A stretch of 41,224 bases of DNA, from NCBI GenBank assembly GCA_947628965.1, contig CANRBV010000001.1:1-41224 (forward strand), given 5' to 3'. The DNA comes from an uncultured Bacilli bacterium (GTDB lineage: Bacteria; Bacillota_I; Bacilli_A; RF39; UBA660). Within the stretch, counting starts at the first letter, position 1, and each line of letters starts with the position of its first letter. Below are positions 15,228 to 39,235 of the stretch, piece after piece. Under the pieces are notes generated by a model. It was not told the origin of the DNA. It saw nothing but the letters and a program-made list of their open reading frames with translations, and made no database searches. The position numbers were made by a program, and so were the translations under genes.

Positions 15228-15548
15228 TTAATATACTTTTTCTAAAAATATTTTATTTTCAAATGTTCCCTTTTTAGCCCCTTTTTATGCTGCAATAGCA
15301 ACTACTTCTTCTAATGTTGAATTTTCTAATTTAGCTAAATATTTAATAACTTCTACCATATCTGCTAATTCCTCAATTCTATCCTTTCCTGTTGCATTTA
15401 TTACTTCTAGATATTCCTCATTTAGCTTTTTTTCTAGTTCAGCTTTAAATTCTTCATCAGTTAAAATTCTTGTGATTGGTTTTTCACCATTAGATTTAAT
15501 GATTTCAGGTATTTTATCTCTTACCAATTTGTTATATATTTGTTCCAT
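15228..15548 (-). pseudogene. MazG-like NTP pyrophosphohydrolase with premature stop
   Basis: The open part (15285-15548, 87 residues) has MazG / phosphoribosyl-ATP pyrophosphohydrolase-like features: YNKLVRDKIPEII at the N-terminus, EEYLEVI, and ELADMVEVIKYLA. The family hydrolyses nucleoside triphosphates to monophosphates. The TAA at 15285-15287 is followed in the same frame by 18 more codons (KGAKKGTFENKIFLEKVY, then TAA at 15228-15230) that match the usual family C-terminal tail. One nonsense change therefore appears to have removed the tail. The enzyme may be inactive or only shortened. AAGGAGA precedes the ATG. The gene diverges from the HAD gene across repeat A. Confidence 0.7.
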
Positions 15549-15643
15549 ACTTTATCTCCTTTTTTTACATAGATTGTTGTCATTATACAAATGTAATTGA
15601 CATTATCAACTTATCTATAAAAATTTTATCATAATTTTTAATA

Positions 15644-15717
15644 TTTTAAAACTCGAACTATATAAGTCCGAGTTTCCTATCTATCTGGTGCGAGTGACGT
15701 AGTAATCTACAACTTTT
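15644..15717. repeat. Repeat A, copy 1
   Basis: This 74-bp sequence recurs at 28345-28418 with about five mismatches counted by eye. It holds a hairpin (AAACTCGGACT/AGTTCGAGTTT read on the minus strand, with T-runs on both sides, so a bidirectional terminator), a GTAG-TAAT-CTAC inverted repeat, and on the minus strand a tRNA-end-like CACTCGCACCA. Weaker similarity continues for tens of bases on both sides. The gap 15549-15837 between divergent genes holds nothing else I can name. Confidence 0.75.
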
Positions 15718-15837
15718 TGTAATGTTAACGATTTTATTATATAAAAATAGTAATCATTAGTAATACTTTAGTGCAGATTTGTCTGCATGCATAGAAAAAT
15801 ATGTGTTTTTATGATAAAATTATATTAGGTGATAATA

Positions 15838-16350
15838 ATGATCAATACAAATTTTGATAACATTAAAGTAGCAATTTTTGATTTTGATAATACATTAGCT
15901 ATTCATAAAGATAAAGATTTTCTAAAACATCGTCGAGAAAGTGAAGAAAAATTTTTGAATTATTATTTAAAAGCATATTTAAATCCAAATTCTTTCTATG
16001 AAGATATTGAACCATGTACTAAATCAGATAAATTATATAAATTAATTACTGCTTTAAAAAATAAAGGAGTTACATTATATTGTTTATCTGGAATGAGATT
16101 TTCATTTCATTTAAAAGCAAAGCAAAACTTTGTTAATAAATATTATGGTGATAATATAGAGGTTATTTCAACCAAAAATCAAGAAACTAAAGTAGCTGCT
16201 GTAAAAATTATTAGTCGTATTCATAATTGCAGTATGAATGAAATATTGTTTGTTGATGATATAGAAGAAAATGTCATCAGATTAAAAGATATCGGTGTTC
16301 ATTCTTTATTAGCAGATGAAGTTGAATCACTATTAAATAGTATTGAATAA
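15838..16350 (+). CDS. HAD-family phosphatase
   Basis: A 170-residue haloacid-dehalogenase-fold hydrolase with motif I DFDNT (nucleophile Asp15, acid/base Asp17), motif II Ser in CLSGMR, a Lys after it, and motif IV FVDDIEEN. With its small helical cap it resembles phosphatases of small metabolites or nucleotides; the substrate is unknown. I choose the ATG at 15838 (TTAGGTGA upstream) over the GTG at 15829. It is the only gene between repeat A and repeat B next to tRNA-Arg. Confidence 0.78.
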   Translation: MINTNFDNIKVAIFDFDNTLAIHKDKDFLKHRRESEEKFLNYYLKAYLNPNSFYEDIEPCTKSDKLYKLITALKNKGVTLYCLSGMRFSFHLKAKQNFVNKYYGDNIEVISTKNQETKVAAVKIISRIHNCSMNEILFVDDIEENVIRLKDIGVHSLLADEVESLLNSIE

Positions 16351-16414
16351 AAGCAGAAATGTTATAGAAAAAGATTAGGAAACTTAGTTTAAATTATTTT
16401 TTGATATTTTGTCT

Positions 16415-16520
16415 TTGACAAAATAATTAACCCCCTAGGCATTTTGACAAGTACATCAAAATAGCCTAAGGGGTTATCTTTTTATATCAATATCCGAAAA
16501 AGTTCGAATAGAAACGTCAA
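16415..16520. repeat. Repeat B, copy 1 (three-hairpin trailer of tRNA-Arg)
   Basis: A 106-bp element abutting the CCA end of tRNA-Arg. It has a hairpin ending GACAAAAT, a long inverted repeat around CCCCCTAGGC...GCCTAAGGGG with T-runs (a bidirectional terminator for the HAD gene and the tRNA), and a CCGAAAAAGTTCG hairpin. Copies lie at 27311 and 29707. Confidence 0.8.
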
Positions 16521-16597
16521 TGGTGCGCCCAAAGGGAGTCGAACCCCTAACCTTTAGATCCGTAGTCTAACGCTCTATCCAATTGAGCTATGGGCGC
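16521..16597 (-). tRNA. tRNA-Arg (ACG)
   Basis: Complete cloverleaf with encoded CCA, acceptor GCGCCCA/TGGGCGC, anticodon stem TTAGA/TCTAA and loop CTACGGA (anticodon ACG, read as ICG). Confidence 0.96.
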
Positions 16598-16648: not shown

Positions 16649-16675
16649 ATTTCTAAAGATGAACTTGCTATCTAT
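16649..16675. repeat. 27-bp direct repeat, left copy
   Basis: The sequence from 16649 to 16675 is repeated at 17910-17936, where it includes the 3' end of the 69-residue gene. The two copies exactly bracket the IS481-type element plus the 200-bp hairpin element. The repeat is much longer than a usual IS target duplication. Confidence 0.8.
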
Positions 16676-17709
16676 GTAGGTTTGTCAAACAAAAGTGACA
16701 TAGTCACGACAAACCAACGATAGATTATTTTAATTTATTAAAATAATCACGAAGCAATTCATTAGGAGATTTCCATTTCAACGGTTGCATAGGGAAATTA
16801 TTATAATGTCTTAAATAAACTTGCAACTGTTGATTGGCATCTTCTAATGAATAAAAGCGGTGGCAATTATAAAACCGTTCATTATCTTTTCTATGACTTC
16901 GTTCAACCTTACCATTATGTTTCGGTGTGTAAGGTTTAATTAAGTCATGATGGATGCCTTTCTTTCTTAATCCGAGTTCAAACATAGTGATATCTTTAGG
17001 ATCCTTAGATATCAATCTTTTGGTGAATTCCACTCCGTTATCCGTTCTTATCGTATAGATTTTAAATGGAAATCTTTTAATCACTTCTAATAAGAATTTA
17101 TAAGAAGTGTATGTTGATTTCTCTCCATAGATTTTTAAGTAACGATAACGAGAGAATTCATCTATAGCTGTATATTGATAAAGTTTGAACTGTCCTACGA
17201 TGCATTTTGATGGAACGGTTTTAACATCTATCTGAACTCGTTCTCCTGGAAAAGTCATCTGAATATAAGGTTTAGCTTTTTTCTTCTTATGTTTCTTTGG
17301 GGTAACATATTTTAGGTTTAATTTTTTTAACTGATGATATAAACTAGAAACCGTTCTTGTGTAACCACGTTGTTTCAGTTTAACCCAAAGAACTACTAAA
17401 CCAGTATTCTGATTTTTACGGAACACATCTTGTATTAACTTTAATTCTTCTTCCGTATGTTGATTAGGATGACTTTTAGGTTTTGTACTTTCGTTAGCAA
17501 GAGAACGAATATCACCATTGTAACGTTTTCTCCAACGATAGATGTATTGCCTATTCGTGTTGTAAACACGAGACGCTTTTGATACGCCATATTTCTTGGC
17601 GTATTTGATGAGAGACAATCTGTATCTCATCTGCTGAGTAATTTTGGTTTTACTCATAGATTTCTCATTCCTTTCCAAAATTTAGTTGGATTGGTTTGAC
17701 AAACCTACA
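16675..17709 (-). mobile_element. IS481-type insertion sequence
   Basis: A 1035-bp element bounded by perfect 16-bp terminal inverted repeats, TGTAGGTTTGTCAAAC at the left and its complement at the right, with the TGT...ACA ends typical of IS481 relatives. It holds one transposase gene. No short target duplication is visible at its own ends. Confidence 0.85.
16725..17657 (-). CDS. IS481-type DDE transposase
   Basis: About 310 residues: an N-terminal helix-turn-helix (KYAKKYGVSKASRVYNTNRQYIYRWRKRY) and an rve integrase core with GERVQIDVKTV (first Asp), IRTDNGVEFT (second Asp) and KHNGKVERSHR (catalytic Glu). It appears intact. I choose the ATG at 17657 (AAAGGA upstream) over the in-frame TTG at 17678. 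Confidence 0.88.
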   Translation of the reverse strand: MSKTKITQQMRYRLSLIKYAKKYGVSKASRVYNTNRQYIYRWRKRYNGDIRSLANESTKPKSHPNQHTEEELKLIQDVFRKNQNTGLVVLWVKLKQRGYTRTVSSLYHQLKKLNLKYVTPKKHKKKKAKPYIQMTFPGERVQIDVKTVPSKCIVGQFKLYQYTAIDEFSRYRYLKIYGEKSTYTSYKFLLEVIKRFPFKIYTIRTDNGVEFTKRLISKDPKDITMFELGLRKKGIHHDLIKPYTPKHNGKVERSHRKDNERFYNCHRFYSLEDANQQLQVYLRHYNNFPMQPLKWKSPNELLRDYFNKLK

Positions 17710-17710
17710 C

Positions 17711-17910
17711 TGTGCAATTATTTCTTCTTTGATAAAGCTTATGCCGAGAAAACATTAAAATTTTAGGGAGGATGTGATAGGCTTTTGTGCCTCAGGCAGA
17801 TTGTAGCTTTGCTACTTGTTGCTGAGCCTCTGCCTTATTTTCACATCATCGGTTCCTGAAATTTTGATGGTAAATTGGAATAACTGTCACATTTGTATTA
17901 TAATTGCACA
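17711..17910. mobile_element. 200-bp hairpin MITE-like element
   Basis: Exactly 200 bp bounded by 11-bp inverted repeats (TGTGCAATTAT at the left, ATAATTGCACA at the right) and without a gene. Internal arms pair over much of the length: AAAATTTT..AGG with CCT..AAATTTT, GATGTGA with TCACATC, GGCAGA with TCTGCC, and a central GTAGC-ttt-GCTAC stem. It could be a miniature transposable element or the remnant of another IS. It sits one base from the right end of the IS481-type element. Confidence 0.65.
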
Positions 17911-17936
17911 TTTCTAAAGATGAACTTGCTATCTAT
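17910..17936. repeat. 27-bp direct repeat, right copy
   Basis: Second copy of the 16649-16675 sequence. This one is probably the ancestral context, because it runs into the stop codon of the 69-residue gene. Confidence 0.8.
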
Positions 17937-18138
17937 CGTTTTTATGAGTTCTTAAATATTTTTTCATAGCTTTTATTGCAATCATTTCTTCATCTTCAAC
18001 AGGAAGATTATTTTTCGTTTGTTCTTCAATATGCAAAGTATTTCCAATACAGGTAACAATTACTCGAATATGTCCATCTGCTGTTGTTATTACAATTTTT
18101 TCTTTATTTGATAATACAACATCTTTTTTTGTTTTCAT
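17929..18138 (-). CDS. Small hypothetical protein of the XRE operon
   Basis: A 69-residue protein: a beta-rich N-terminus (KIVITTADGHIRVIVTCIGNTLHIEEQ) and a C-terminal helix (EEMIAIKAMKKYL). I do not recognise it. Its ATG overlaps the stop of the XRE regulator by four bases, so the two are translationally coupled and probably work together, for example as a regulator and a partner or effector. No toxin motif is evident. Confidence 0.7.
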   Translation of the reverse strand: MKTKKDVVLSNKEKIVITTADGHIRVIVTCIGNTLHIEEQTKNNLPVEDEEMIAIKAMKKYLRTHKNDR

Positions 18139-26363: not shown

Positions 26364-26489
26364 AATAAACCTCACTTCTTGCTTTTATACTAACATTTTA
26401 AAAAAAATTTGTCTATATTAAAATGCTATAAGTTTGTTTATTACAATTTTATTATAAATTATTATAATAACGTTTGCATCTTAAAATCC

Positions 26490-26515
26490 CCAAGTAATCT
26501 ATAACTTTTATAAAA
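26490..26515. repeat. Decayed match to repeat A
   Basis: AGTAATCTATAACTTTT here matches AGTAATCTACAACTTTT of repeat A copy 1 at all but one base. The terminator hairpin and the tRNA-end-like part of A are not recognisable. It lies in the same position, upstream of a + strand accessory gene that is followed by repeat B. Confidence 0.35.
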
Positions 26516-26618: not shown

Positions 26619-27203
26619 ATGCCATTAGTGTATATCGATGAAAATTTAAATAAAATTATTCAAAATCCAGACAGCGTTTTGTATTTAAGGCCATATGATA
26701 TTGGATGCAAGCGAGCATTATTTGCTGTAATTAAAGAAGATCAAGGAGTTTATAAGAAAGTCCAACTTACTAAAGAACAGTCTAAAATGTCTTTTCCTTG
26801 GGAACCTATATATTGGTTCAATAATGGTCCTGGGCGTTTCTTTTTAAAAGATTTTATATCTTTTTATAACGAACTTGCTTTAAACACAACTAATTTAGAT
26901 GGATTTAAGACTAAAATCCTAGAAAATAAAATTTATAACGTTGGTATATTTGCAATATTTAATGATGGCTCAGCAACTTTTATTATACGTGAAAGAGCAA
27001 AAAAATTTGATAAACAAGGTGGAATACAATCATACATAGATTTATTAAAACAGCATAAAGAATATAATCCACAATGTGATACTTATGAAATTATAGAATT
27101 TCATAGTGTTAATGATGATACCTTTATAATACCTGAACTACAAAAAGAAACAGAAGAACAACCGAAAGTTAGAAACCTAATAAAAAATAATAAGAGACCA
27201 TAA
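26619..27203 (+). CDS. Hypothetical accessory protein
   Basis: A 194-residue soluble protein I do not recognise. It begins MPLVYIDENLNKIIQ and has motifs VLYLRPYDIGCKRALFAVIKE, WEPIYWFNNGPGRFF and FNDGSATFIIRERA. The last 25 residues are polar. AAAGGAG precedes the ATG and a terminator hairpin follows. It lies between the decayed repeat A and repeat B copy 2, so is probably a transferred single-gene unit. Confidence 0.7.
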   Translation: MPLVYIDENLNKIIQNPDSVLYLRPYDIGCKRALFAVIKEDQGVYKKVQLTKEQSKMSFPWEPIYWFNNGPGRFFLKDFISFYNELALNTTNLDGFKTKILENKIYNVGIFAIFNDGSATFIIRERAKKFDKQGGIQSYIDLLKQHKEYNPQCDTYEIIEFHSVNDDTFIIPELQKETEEQPKVRNLIKNNKRP

Positions 27204-27255: not shown

Positions 27256-27310
27256 TCTTTATCAGTAAGTTGTAATTAAGTTTAATACTTTTTTACACCA
27301 TATTTTTTGT

Positions 27311-27417
27311 TTTAGCAAAATAATTAAACCCCTGGTATTTTTGACACAAGTAGCAAAATTAATTTAAAAAGCTATCTTTTTATATCAATATTCGAAAAAG
27401 TTCAATAGATTCGTCAA
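27311..27417. repeat. Repeat B, copy 2 (decayed)
   Basis: Aligns to copies 1 and 3 from the AAAATAATTAA segment through TATCTTTTTATATCAATATTCGAAAAAGTTC to GTCAATGG. The central CCCC...GGGG hairpin has lost its pairing, so this copy is degenerate. With the relic that follows, it accounts for the gap at 27204-27510. Confidence 0.75.
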
Positions 27418-27440
27418 TGGTGTCCTAAAGGAAGAAGCAA
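27418..27440 (-). pseudogene. Relic of a tRNA 3' end
   Basis: On the minus strand TTCCTTTAGGACACCA joins repeat B exactly where the CCA of tRNA-Arg (...CTCCCTTTGGGCGCACCA) joins copy 1. It looks like a decayed tRNA-Arg-like 3' end. The rest of the tRNA is absent. Confidence 0.4.
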
Positions 27441-27510
27441 TGTTTTTTTGATTTTCAAGATAAATTGGGATCACTATTACACAAAGCAAAATAAAATCAA
27501 TCTATTACAA

Positions 27511-28107
27511 TTATAAATTATCTTTCATTTCTGGAAACAAATCATAGAGATTATATCCCAATAAATTATCAAAATATTCTTTTAATTTATATGTTTCTTT
27601 TATATGATATTGTGTATTTGAATAAGCTCCTCTTCTAATCATAACATCAATTAATCTTTTATCTATCGTACACATTTTAGTAGTACACATTAGATCACAT
27701 AAATTTATAATTTTTTCTTCCAGTGTATATTGATGATTTTTAATAAATTCTGTTCTAAAAGGTATATCATCAGGAATGCCACCTGCTGTACAATTAATAT
27801 CATTATTAAGATAGGAATGAGTTAAACAGATATTACAATAATCATCTTCGTAGCCTTGCTCTTTCAGATACTCATAACCTCTTATGACATGTTCACTTGA
27901 TGGACCAATCATTTTACCTATATCATGGATATAACCTAAAGTTTCCGCTTTTTCAGGATCCACATCTATATTATTTCTTCTAAGAGCCGTGGCAATTCTT
28001 CCAGCAGCTAAGCCAACACAAAGCGAATGATCTATCCATCTTTGATCTTCAAATTTATTTCTTGCATTTTCTAATATATCTTTTGCTTCTTTATTTGTTA
28101 ATTTCAT
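27511..28107 (-). CDS. HD-domain (HDIG-type) phosphohydrolase
   Basis: A 198-residue metal-dependent phosphohydrolase of the HD superfamily: His27 (WIDHSLCVG), the HDIGK motif with His61-Asp62, His73, His97 and a distal Asp in INLCDLM. Such enzymes cleave nucleotides or phosphate esters; the substrate is unknown. AGGTGA precedes the ATG. A 41-residue ORF ends 11 bp upstream in the same operon. It diverges from the 322-residue gene across repeat A copy 2. Confidence 0.83.
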   Translation of the reverse strand: MKLTNKEAKDILENARNKFEDQRWIDHSLCVGLAAGRIATALRRNNIDVDPEKAETLGYIHDIGKMIGPSSEHVIRGYEYLKEQGYEDDYCNICLTHSYLNNDINCTAGGIPDDIPFRTEFIKNHQYTLEEKIINLCDLMCTTKMCTIDKRLIDVMIRRGAYSNTQYHIKETYKLKEYFDNLLGYNLYDLFPEMKDNL

Positions 28108-28118
28108 AATCTATTCAC

Positions 28119-28244
28119 CTAACTTTTAAAATACATCTTCATATACTTTATTACATCTATGTAATTTATCATAGTTATTTTATGATCATCGGTTGTTAAA
28201 TTTGAAGCAACATTTTTACAAGGGATAATAGCACCTATTTTCAT
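28119..28244 (-). CDS. 41-residue small protein upstream of the HD gene
   Basis: ATG at 28244 is preceded by GAGGAG seven bases upstream and opens 41 codons (MKIGAIIPCKNVASNL..., ending MKMYFKS), closing 11 bp before the HD start. The good ribosome-binding site and tight spacing support translation. I know no homologue. It may be a truncated relative of a larger protein or a partner of the HD enzyme. Confidence 0.55.
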   Translation of the reverse strand: MKIGAIIPCKNVASNLTTDDHKITMINYIDVIKYMKMYFKS

Positions 28245-28344
28245 TAATAATCTCCTCATATAAATGCATTGTCAATATGCAGTGTTTTTTATAAATTTAG
28301 AAATATCAATTCAACTTATAAAAATTATATCACGTATTCAACCA

Positions 28345-28418
28345 TTTTAAAACTCGAACTATAAAAGTCCGAGTTTAGTATCTATCTGGTGCGAATGACG
28401 TAGTTATCTACAACTTTT
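28345..28418. repeat. Repeat A, copy 2
   Basis: Matches 15644-15717 with about five mismatches and again lies between divergent genes. It keeps the bidirectional terminator hairpin and the GTAG-TTAT-CTAC repeat, and on the minus strand ends ...CATTCGCACCA. Here GCGAA upstream on that strand can pair with TTCGC to close an outer stem. The rest of the 28245-28575 gap shows only A+T-rich sequence. Confidence 0.75.
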
Positions 28419-28575
28419 CGCAAAATTAACTATTTTCATAATAAAATACAAATTGTTATAATTTACTGCACAAACTTTTTTATTTATGTAATATCTTTTA
28501 TTAAATACTTTCTTCCAAAAACTTTACTATTTATCGAATTTAAGTTACAATTATGATGTAATTAGGGAGGTTTTT

Positions 28576-29544
28576 ATGGATATGGAAAAAGTTAATTTTA
28601 ATAAGAATATAACAGAAAATGAAAAAAAATTTGCGCTTCGATTTGAAGGAATTGAATCTAGTTCAAATATTGATAAAGAAAAAATAAATAAATTACTTGA
28701 TAATTTTGTTAATTCAAAATCTCATACTAATATGATAAGAAATGTTGCATTTATCAGAACAATACTAAAAGAGTTTGAAGAAAAATTACTAGTTGTTGAA
28801 TATAGTGATAAAAATTCTCAAGAAATAGTAAAATACGACAATGGAAATTTGTTTTTCTTTCATTTCAAAAATAAAAATTCAATAACTATAGAATTTGACT
28901 CAGGTAACTTAAAGATATTTGTTTCAAAAAAAGACAAAGATAGTATTTTAGATTATCCACATTATGATAGTATGAATCACCAACTTAATGAATTAATCAA
29001 ACATATGCATTTATTAAAAAATGTTAAGCCAGTTAATTTAGATATGGATTCTAAAGCCTTAATAGAAATATATAAATTATTTTATGACGAAAATCCTGAT
29101 TTTAGTCTTTCAAATATAAATATTAGAGTGCAGACAATGATGTCTATTTTAGCACAGTTTGGAATAACTCTTGGAGCTGATTATTCATTTAGCCTGCTAG
29201 AAAAAAGTAAAATGCCCAATTCTTTATATATTGAACAACTTGTAAACAAATTATTTCCATTAGGAGAAATAACTGACATTGATGAGCCAATTAAACTTGC
29301 AGATGAACCAAAGAAAATTATAAAAATTGTTGGAGAATGTGTGAGAGAAGTAATTAATGATGGATATAATAAAGATGATGCTTTAATAACAATTAGTAAA
29401 GTTATTCATGCGGGAAGATATAGTCTTTCTTCAAATTCAAATGTTAAAGAATTAAGCCATTTTACTAATCTTACGCAAAATGAAGTTGAATCTAGTATAA
29501 GATTAGTTAAACGTATTGAAGAAAAATTAAACAACGATAAATAA
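28576..29544 (+). CDS. Hypothetical accessory protein
   Basis: A 322-residue soluble protein I do not recognise. Residues 1-140 are mixed alpha/beta (LVVEYSDKNSQEIVKYDNGNL, SITIEFDSGNLKIFVSKKD). Residues 150-320 appear helical (MMSILAQFGITLGADYSFSLLEKSK, KKIIKIVGECVREVINDGY, NEVESSIRLVKRIEEKL). No catalytic motif is evident. GGGAGG precedes the ATG. It sits between repeat A and repeat B, then the tRNA cluster, as the HAD gene does at 15838. Confidence 0.7.
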   Translation: MDMEKVNFNKNITENEKKFALRFEGIESSSNIDKEKINKLLDNFVNSKSHTNMIRNVAFIRTILKEFEEKLLVVEYSDKNSQEIVKYDNGNLFFFHFKNKNSITIEFDSGNLKIFVSKKDKDSILDYPHYDSMNHQLNELIKHMHLLKNVKPVNLDMDSKALIEIYKLFYDENPDFSLSNINIRVQTMMSILAQFGITLGADYSFSLLEKSKMPNSLYIEQLVNKLFPLGEITDIDEPIKLADEPKKIIKIVGECVREVINDGYNKDDALITISKVIHAGRYSLSSNSNVKELSHFTNLTQNEVESSIRLVKRIEEKLNNDK

Positions 29545-29586: not shown

Positions 29587-29706
29587 TTGTACTATTTTCT
29601 TTAACAATATATCTTCATAATTTTCTTTAACTAATGCACTAAAAAGAGTAATCTAGGCTAAATATATAATTTATATCCATTTTTAGTTTTTTGAATATAT
29701 TTTGTT

Positions 29707-29814
29707 TTGACAAAATAATTAACCCCCTAGGTATTTTGACAAGTATATCAAAATAACCTAAGGGGCTATCTTTTTTTATATCAATATTCGAAAAAGTTCG
29801 AATAGAAACATCAA
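29707..29814. repeat. Repeat B, copy 3 (trailer of tRNA-Phe)
   Basis: Near-identical to copy 1. It has the ACAAAAT hairpin, the long CCCCCTAGG...CCTAAGGGG inverted repeat and a perfect ATTCGAA-AAAG-TTCGAAT hairpin, and abuts the CCA of tRNA-Phe. Confidence 0.82.
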
Positions 29815-29890
<76 letters not shown>

Positions 29891-37967: not shown

Positions 37968-38027
37968 TGAACTGCACCCTTTAGAGTAGACATCAATAAA
38001 AAAACTAGTATATTAAAAAGAGAAAAG

Positions 38028-38819
38028 TTATTTTTCTCTTTTTGTGTAAGTTTTTCTCTTTTTCTTAACTTTTGACTTTAATCTTGTTGTGTTATAAAAT
38101 AATATCCATTCTTCTACAAGTTGAATATATTCTTGTAAAGATGTAATATTATTGTTGTACAAAGTTTCCTTTTTTAGAAGAGCATGCCAGCTTTCTATTG
38201 GAGAATCATCTATTGGAGTACCTTTTCTGCTCATAGAAATTTGTACTCCATTTGATTCACATATAGCTTTGTACTCATAAGATGTATATTGGAATCCTTG
38301 ATCACTATGAATGATAAGTCCATGTACATCTTTTTCTTTTGCTATTGCTTCATTAAGTGTATCCATCACAAGTTTATTATCATTATGCTTTGATATTTTA
38401 TAAGCAACTACATGTCTATCATATAAATCAATTATTGTTGATAAATATGCTCTTGAACCCTTAAATATTAAATAGGTTACATCTGTATCCCATACTTTAT
38501 TAGGTTTATCAGTAGTAAAGTTTCTGTTTAATAAATTGGGTTTGACATTATCTTCTATTCGTTCATTCTTATTTTTCTTCTTTGATTTTCTTATATATTC
38601 TGCCATTAAATTATATTTTTTCATTATTCTTAATACCTTCTTTCCATTCATAACTACACCATATTTTTGGAGTAGACCTTCAACTATCCTTCGATAACCA
38701 TATGTACCTTTAGAATCATCAAATATTTCTTTAATAATTAAATAATCATAATAATCAGGATCTTCCTTATTTCTATACTTATAATAAGTTTTAGGACTTA
38801 TATTAAGTACGGCACACAT
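38028..38819 (-). CDS. IS3-family transposase OrfB (catalytic part)
   Basis: A 263-residue rve integrase core: an HTH_21-like helical part with YGYRRI, catalytic Asp in VWDTDVTYL, Asp in IIHSDQGFQY and Glu in SPIESWHALLKKE. The end after FYNTTRLKSK is unusually basic (KKKRKTYTKREK) in place of the common LSPVEYR. The frame before 38819 is open back to about 38860 (VTFINLYRENYKLYN). The part that should precede it (DLTKEDWKERYEILKKYQAFLKAQRERK in pieces) is in another phase, ending at TAA 38861-38863. Confidence 0.85.
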   Translation of the reverse strand: MCAVLNISPKTYYKYRNKEDPDYYDYLIIKEIFDDSKGTYGYRRIVEGLLQKYGVVMNGKKVLRIMKKYNLMAEYIRKSKKKNKNERIEDNVKPNLLNRNFTTDKPNKVWDTDVTYLIFKGSRAYLSTIIDLYDRHVVAYKISKHNDNKLVMDTLNEAIAKEKDVHGLIIHSDQGFQYTSYEYKAICESNGVQISMSRKGTPIDDSPIESWHALLKKETLYNNNITSLQEYIQLVEEWILFYNTTRLKSKVKKKRKTYTKREK

Positions 38820-38940: not shown

Positions 38941-39147
38941 TTAAATCCTTTGTTTTTGACGGCCACGTCTATTACCAGTTACTTGTTCAAAATGATCTAC
39001 TTTTGTTTTCCAAGTTTTGATTGTACTAACTGGTATACCATATTCTTTAGCTAATTGGTAGCCTGATTCTCCTTTAATATATCGATTTAAAATTTCATTT
39101 TTTTCTTGCTCAGTGTAGTGAAGAAATTTTTGACCCTTTGAAGCCAC
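38941..39147 (-). CDS. IS3-family transposase OrfA
   Basis: A 68-residue helix-turn-helix protein (YTEQEKNEILNRYIKGESGYQLAKEYGIPVSTIKTWKTK) that binds the IS ends. I choose the GTG start at 39147, nine bases after GGAGG, rather than the longer frame from 39183. CAAAAAC near its end is a plausible slippery site for the -1 shift into OrfB, usual for this family. Confidence 0.82.
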   Translation of the reverse strand: MASKGQKFLHYTEQEKNEILNRYIKGESGYQLAKEYGIPVSTIKTWKTKVDHFEQVTGNRRGRQKQRI

Positions 39148-39235
39148 AAGAAAACACCTCCTTTCGGAAGTGTATTCTATCATATTTTCCTTAAACTAGT
39201 TTTTTATTGATGTCTACTCTAAAGGGTGCAGTTCA

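Follow-up and report, generated by a model that had tools for sequence, protein, structure and literature searches.

A 74-bp repeat in an uncultured Bacilli genome as a probable junction of site-specific integrative elements at tRNA CCA ends

Results

Repeat A and the arrays of the window

The window, i.e., the whole stretch of 41,224 nucleotides analyzed here, comes from an uncultured Bacilli bacterium and contains two copies of a 74-bp element, Repeat A, at 15644-15717 and 28345-28418. The initial annotation had described two copies with about five differences between different divergent genes, and this description is confirmed in its coordinates, in the 5 differences within 74 bp, and in the gene orientations. 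Copy 1 is flanked by a HAD-like gene on the plus strand and a MazG-like gene on the minus strand, and copy 2 by a gene for a 322-aa protein (plus) and an HD-domain gene (minus). Both copies sit inside a 120-bp direct repeat (15616-15735 and 28317-28436; 84% identity, 12.7 kb apart, same orientation). On the minus strand, the GTAG-loop-CTAC motif, CCA end and hairpin pointed out initially can be read in each copy as GTAG-ATTA-CTAC or GTAG-ATAA-CTAC, CAYTCGCACCA and the hairpin AAACTCGGACT..AGTTCGAGTTT.

Each copy lies in an array that starts at a tRNA gene and is read here on the minus strand. The sequences before and after the CCA junctions are called tails (t) and left ends (A or B), and are assigned to class 1 (A/t1) or class 2 (B/t2) as described below. 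Array 1 is anchored by tRNA-Arg(acg) (16521-16597, minus strand; ARAGORN and Rfam), with its CCA end at 16521. From base 1 after the CCA follows a class-2 left end of type B (TTGACGTTTCTATTCGAAC..) with a terminator hairpin region (16414-16520, minus strand, the limit at 16414 taken from the repeat extent), and then a HAD-like hydrolase gene antisense to the array (15829-16350, plus strand; PF00702, below the curated cut-off). The class-2 right end, tail t2 (15686-15720, minus strand, from the tail survey), has its CCA ending at 15686 and forms the left part of Repeat A. The right part is a class-1 left end of type A (15616-15685, minus strand) consisting of GATAGATAGGAAACTCGG, a hairpin and the promoter-like TATGATAAAAT. 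It is followed by the MazG-like gene (15285-15548, minus strand; named by reading, no Pfam match), the product of which is 80% identical to one in an array of genome G009, and then by tRNA-Pro, with no clear distal end.

Array 2 is anchored by tRNA-Phe(gaa) (29815-29890, minus strand; ARAGORN and Rfam; CCA end at 29815) and begins with a class-2 left end of type B (TTGATGTTTCTATTCGAAC..) and its terminator region (29706-29814, minus strand). The antisense gene for the 322-aa protein (28576-29544, plus strand) has no assigned family, and a 97% identical partial copy lies behind tRNA-Leu(caa) on contig C5 of the own genome (G000). The second copy of Repeat A follows, with tail t2 of the class-2 right end (28387-28421) as its left part and the class-1 left end of type A (28317-28386) as its right part, both on the minus strand. 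Behind it lie a 46-aa ORF without family, possibly a gene remnant (28119-28259, minus strand), the HD-domain gene (27511-28107, minus strand; PF01966), and a class-1 right end with tail t1 (..CCTTTAGGACACCA; 27418-27442, minus strand). The third element starts with a class-2 left end of type B (TTGACGAATCTATTGAAC..; 27300-27417, minus strand) and carries an antisense gene for a 194-aa protein of no assigned family (26619-27203, plus strand). A possible decayed t2 tail, AAAAGTTATAGATTACTTGGGG without CCA, was seen by eye at 26488-26509 on the minus strand.

Both ends are kept in two elements of the form B..t2 and one of the form A..t1, and the last element of each array is without a clear right end. 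The type-B pattern has only 2 matches in the own genome, at tRNA-Arg and tRNA-Phe, the third B end at 27417 being too divergent for the pattern. A Pfam search found no recombinase domain among the six ORFs of the two arrays.

Elsewhere in the window, a perfect 36-nt inverted repeat (37968-38003 and 39200-39235, 1196 bp apart) surrounds ORFs at 38028-38819 and 38941-39183 and likely represents the ends of an insertion element. Between tRNA-Lys and tRNA-Arg there is an IS transposase gene with an rve domain (16725-17678, in the region 16660-17970), flanked on either side by ATAGATAGCAAGTTCATCTTTAGAAAT.

Further copies of Repeat A

Strong matches (E 3e-16 to 1e-6) were also found elsewhere in the own genome (1.23 Mb, 57 contigs), on C21, C11 and C5. 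When read, these turned out to be the 3' ends of real RNA genes, with the right half of Repeat A following the CCA. A pattern search of the same genome found 7 matches with no mismatch and 1 with a single mismatch. Five of these 8 are located behind tRNA-Leu(caa), tRNA-Cys, tRNA-Leu(tag) and tRNA-Arg(cct), as called by ARAGORN, and a tmRNA recognized by reading; the 3 with no RNA gene in front are the two in the window and C21:21773. Another 9 matches with 2 or 3 mismatches look like chance, given the 8 matches of a control pattern. Across the 60 genomes searched, own included, matches at E<=0.001 were present in 41, namely 35 of 37 genomes of the same family and, weakly, 6 of 23 outside it. 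With copies in 41 of 60 genomes and strong matches in its own genome, Repeat A is therefore far beyond chance. Thus, the further copies whose absence would have counted against the initial idea exist, and the proposed likeness to a tRNA 3' end followed by its terminator has a real basis, as the same right half follows real tRNAs elsewhere. A CRISPR-type repeat and a T-box were early ideas, dropped once the copies proved to abut tRNAs.

The initial annotation had also suggested a small tRNA-like RNA, which would be a CCA-ended mini-helix with a terminator of its own. One strand does combine the CCA end with a hairpin and a terminator, and minus-strand folding of the two copies beats dinucleotide shuffles (z -2.6 and -4.2). 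However, neither ARAGORN nor Rfam, the latter at gathering and permissive thresholds, gave a tRNA or credible known RNA at Repeat A, while the ordinary tRNAs of the window were found.

Junctions at the CCA end

The exact left-end pattern matched at least 115 stretches in genome_contigs, 80 of them readable and mostly titled uncultured Bacilli, Bacillales or Tenericutes, and the junction pattern had 0 matches in viral_contigs. Among the matches listed, 52 of the 80 left ends start exactly after the CCA of an ARAGORN tRNA or tmRNA, with many tRNA kinds represented, and 23 follow tails that are not tRNAs; the rest of the listed junctions are 3 truncated-looking tRNAs or tmRNAs and 2 at locus edges. 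With 52 tRNA or tmRNA junctions against 23 tail junctions, the sequence to the left of the junction can be exchanged, and that to its right stays constant.

Junctions of tails and of tRNAs with the same following sequence were then compared, and 49 of 65 distinct tails and 107 of 405 tRNA regions took part. In 993 of 1389 homologous pairs the two junctions are in register, and homology begins at base 1 after the CCA in 807. Identity is 0.217 at positions -36 to -7, 1.00 at the CCA, and mostly above 0.9 up to +23; some alignments reach 480-708 nt with 76-96% identity, into the genes behind. The CCA is a site-specific breakpoint. A displaced copy of the tRNA 3' end was not found at the distal end of the elements, where tail and tRNA have the low identity given above and CCA alone is common.

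A native family of tRNA terminators, spread by gene conversion or homologous recombination with no site-specific element involved, would account for left end A being a hairpin terminator right behind many tRNAs. However, among the matches listed the same left end is also found behind the 23 non-tRNA tails, and the homology reaches hundreds of bases into genes, both of which speak against such a family.

Element classes and matched ends

There are two recurrent left ends, A (GATTGATAGGAAACTCG..) and B (TTGACGAATCTGTTCGAAC or TTGATGTTTCTATTCGAAC..), and two main tails, t1 (AAAAGTTGTTGTACGTCCT..GGGCACCA) and t2 (AAAAGTTGTAGATAACTACG..TCGCACCA), with t3 and t5 being rarer. When each left end is followed to the next tail on the same strand, A leads to t1 in 22 cases, to t2 in 2 and to t3 in 2, and B leads to t2 in 9. 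The 4 of 26 A elements that end in t2 or t3 speak against strict matching. In a control with one seed per tail, which limits our own choice of tail seeds, the counts were 16:1 versus 0:8 (Fisher p 8e-6, an optimistic value because the loci are partly related). As A pairs with t1 and B with t2, there are therefore two element classes with matched ends, class 1 (A/t1) and class 2 (B/t2).

Beside tRNAs, 81 of 96 left ends of type A and 10 of 12 of type B fold as hairpins (z below -1.5); among control stretches from farther inside, 41 of 108 do so. A -10-like site, by permissive match, comes next in 84 of 96 A ends and in 12 of 12 B ends. Many class-1 left ends (L003, L004, L008 and others) have a common leader, TGTCAATTTAGAAAACACACTTGCATATT, after the promoter.

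The commonest distinct tail junction is t2|A (29), followed by t1|A (13), t3|A (8), t1|B (6), t5|A (4) and t2|B (3), and 16 tails precede other sequence instead of a left end. Repeat A is itself a t2|A junction, and very likely marks where a class-2 element ends and a class-1 element begins. In other words, it would in all likelihood be the seam of two mobile elements, where a right end (tail ..TCGCACCA) meets the left end of the next element (GATAGATA..AAACTCGG) with its hairpin and promoter. The mobility implied in the initial annotation is therefore retained, in the form of a recombination junction at the CCA.

The strongly conserved core of the t2 tails, AGTTGTAGAT, might also be expected of a tRNA-like RNA. 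However, among 24 of the 28 t2 tails collected, no compensatory change is seen in GTAG/CTAC or AGTT/AACT, though pairing is possible in 88.5% of cells for each hairpin, and the 5' arm hardly varies. The lack of double-sided changes together with this arm would fit a DNA site bound by protein and lends no support to an RNA helix, without disproving it. In addition, tail and left end occur independently, as the left end mostly follows ordinary tRNAs and t2 tails also precede other sequences. A tRNA-like RNA is for these reasons extremely unlikely; of the initial reading, the resemblance to a tRNA 3' end and the mobility hold, and the RNA gene is not supported.

Insertion polymorphism

The relatives compared are MAGs, some of them fragmented. 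The tRNA-Thr(cgt) locus, recognized by its shared native neighbour, is empty in G019, in which homology of the flank begins 93 nt after the CCA. The corresponding distance is about 290 nt in G014 (with an A end), 408 nt in G012 and about 8.2 kb in G018; the last holds three elements, one of them with a large serine recombinase (LSR). At tRNA-Phe, G011 and G001 are bare, with a plain terminator and then pyk, and various types of left end, or sequences similar to them, are present in G000, G004, G006, G013, G014, G016, G021 and G031. No empty site with both flanks exactly rejoined was recovered, either at tRNA-Thr or at tRNA-Phe, where it was sought through pyk. In another relative (L241, G017:C4), the last ~45 nt of tRNA-Phe are repeated at the end of the stretch that lies behind this gene; this appears to be a different kind of element, similar to a classical tRNA-fragment island.

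Presence and absence at the same tRNA, as well as the matching of left ends and tails, are further points against the native terminator family, and homologous recombination would not stop at the CCA. We consider this explanation highly improbable.

Recombinase-bearing relatives and cargo

A family of ~90-aa proteins (70-101 aa as read) is encoded by the first ORF behind left end A in 18 of the 68 loci with a first ORF. In far-reaching loci this ORF is followed by a protein of ~614-632 aa (Resolvase and Recombinase domains where scanned, L164) and then by a Mob_Pre relaxase of ~410 aa. The LSR domains PF00239 and PF07508 and the Mob_Pre relaxase were found in both L164 and L225. A ~90-aa protein, an LSR and a relaxase of their own are also found in class-2 elements. 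Complete elements extend from the CCA of tRNA-Leu to a tail in G035:C29 (5.3 kb) and G014:C11 (5.4 kb), from that of tRNA-Thr to a tail in G018:C3 (5.7 kb), and from that of a tmRNA to tail t1 in G018:C20. Overall, full-length relatives at tRNA CCA ends are 5-7 kb long, and most other elements are cassettes of 0.6-1.8 kb with 1-2 genes. Judged by their gene content, the full-length relatives are probably serine-recombinase IMEs.

In a tree of 21 LSRs, a single clade with full support unites the eight that go with left end A. The two that go with left end B belong to a second supported clade, of seven members; in the other five the left end is either out of reach or a variant. The own genome has 4 genes with a Recombinase domain, one of which, on C3, lies behind a t2 tail together with a ~90-aa protein and a relaxase. 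Among solved structures, the best match is the N-terminal domain of TP901-1 integrase. Plasmids and phages gave 442 and 1173 matching records, respectively, and no close relative of the LSR: identity is below 60% throughout (22-31% among the rows listed), and no match covers 80% of the query. On the window's contig (L235, G000:C1:50193-57335), a ~96-aa ORF lies behind tRNA-His, and several kb farther there is a 564-aa LSR that falls outside the two classes and perhaps represents a third one.

The ~90-aa protein (L164:4272-4541, L225:1950-2234 and relatives) adjoins the tRNA-side end in LSR elements and has no Pfam family; given its position, it may be a directionality factor or a regulator.

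Insertion at tRNA 3' ends is common among tyrosine integrases (PMC4383910, PMC5704250), and the elements could instead be classical tRNA islands, or integron-type cassettes with attC-like tails, moved by such an enzyme. The own genome has four Phage_integrase genes (PF00589), one adjoining tRNA-Ala, the cassette size and the arrays resemble integrons, and the tails form imperfect hairpins. Nevertheless, complete elements with these ends carry an LSR, and the LSR clades track the end types. PF00589 is not found on the window's contig, and the displaced tRNA 3' copy that marks the distal boundary of a tyrosine-type island is not seen at these elements, given the low identity to tRNA 3' ends before the CCA. 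Movement by a tyrosine integrase is thus very unlikely, although less clearly so for the small cassettes.

Cargo was searched against Pfam in 29 proteins, i.e., 28 of 31 cassette ORFs (3 short ones left out) and the window's MazG-like protein. HD, HAD, NUDIX, KilA-N, RibD_C, radical SAM, NT5C, HTH, CYTH, CAAX protease, GNAT and IS200-like transposase families were each found in one of the 29 proteins. Some cargo proteins in this set match candidate defence models, also with each family in one protein. Behind tRNA-Leu(caa) in L077 (G000:C5, 2100-3900), a ~430-bp A-type piece common to other tRNA sites precedes the truncated copy of the 322-aa gene and short ORFs.

Discussion

The junctions and their position at the CCA, the matched ends, the insertion polymorphism and the correspondence of LSR clades with end types are all observed. 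On this basis, Repeat A most probably (roughly 85%) belongs to site-specific integrative elements with ends at the CCA, presumably moved by the LSR of autonomous relatives. The LSR would join attP, formed by tail and left end, to the 3' end of a tRNA gene. The crossover dinucleotide would lie within the CCA, so that the tRNA stays whole. Left end A would supply a terminator, so that whatever ends at the CCA is still terminated, followed by a promoter that serves the cargo of the element itself. The LSR would also move, in trans, small cassettes that have the same ends.

The elements of the window, the last of each array aside, keep both ends; none has a recombinase, and they are by comparison of sequences best described as putative non-autonomous, CIME-like cassettes of serine-recombinase IMEs. 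They could also be decayed remnants rather than cassettes.

A broader reading, which we put forward tentatively and at somewhat less than even odds, is an integron-like system built on serine recombination. Here, LSRs would target the CCA of nearly any tRNA or tmRNA and act in trans on cassettes of 0.6-1.8 kb with matched ends, the terminator (and class-1 promoter) would be brought along, and arrays would occur family-wide. As far as their text was accessible, open-licence PMC papers, with preprints outside the scope, gave no description of serine-recombinase cassettes at tRNA CCA ends. If this reading is true, integron-style capture of single genes arose with a different recombinase chemistry and a near-universal target, the tRNA CCA end. 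It would explain much of the gene turnover in reduced, uncultured Bacilli, and CCA followed by a left end would be an easy marker for cassettes and their cargo (nucleotide metabolism, radical SAM, candidate defence genes). It would also draw attention to LSRs able to insert at numerous natural sites while leaving genes intact.

Comparison with known systems

Integrons carry small cassettes of one gene each, arrayed with a recombination site between neighbours, and have attI as target and the IntI integrase. The arrays described here are similar in cassette size, gene number and the recombination site between cassettes, but have no tyrosine integrase by the array, class-1 left ends that bring a promoter-like site, and the tRNA CCA as target instead of attI.

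SCC elements are tens of kb long, and their Ccr serine recombinases target rlmH. They resemble the elements here in having a serine recombinase, tandem composite arrays, and elements without recombinase, as described in PMC3146451. However, the target of SCC is a protein gene, whereas the targets here are tRNA and tmRNA CCA ends and the cassettes are ~1 kb. The ssrA islands of Dehalococcoides (DsiB) are also similar, with tandem islands at a CCA-ended RNA gene and a serine recombinase near the left edge, and 15 of 31 islands are without an integration module (PMC3146451). These islands are described there with ssrA as the sole target, a 20-bp copy of its 3' end at the other boundary, and a two-recombinase module (PMC3146451). 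In contrast, the elements here target mostly tRNA genes of many kinds and some tmRNA genes, have CCA alone in common, and have a relaxase after the LSR.

Serine-recombinase IMEs and CIMEs combine recombinase and relaxase in one element and have cis-mobilizable remnants accreted in tandem, as found here; according to a review, serine IMEs insert within genes or show low specificity, and it is tyrosine recombinases that target tRNA 3' ends (PMC5704250). Multi-targeting LSRs are similar in that one recombinase family uses many attB sites, and the portion of the source available makes no mention of tRNA (PMC10083194). Here, the common target is the tRNA CCA end. Collectively, the system is, by analogy, one that would work like the tandem SCC or Dehalococcoides ssrA islands combined with IME/CIME accretion, and with cassettes of integron size.
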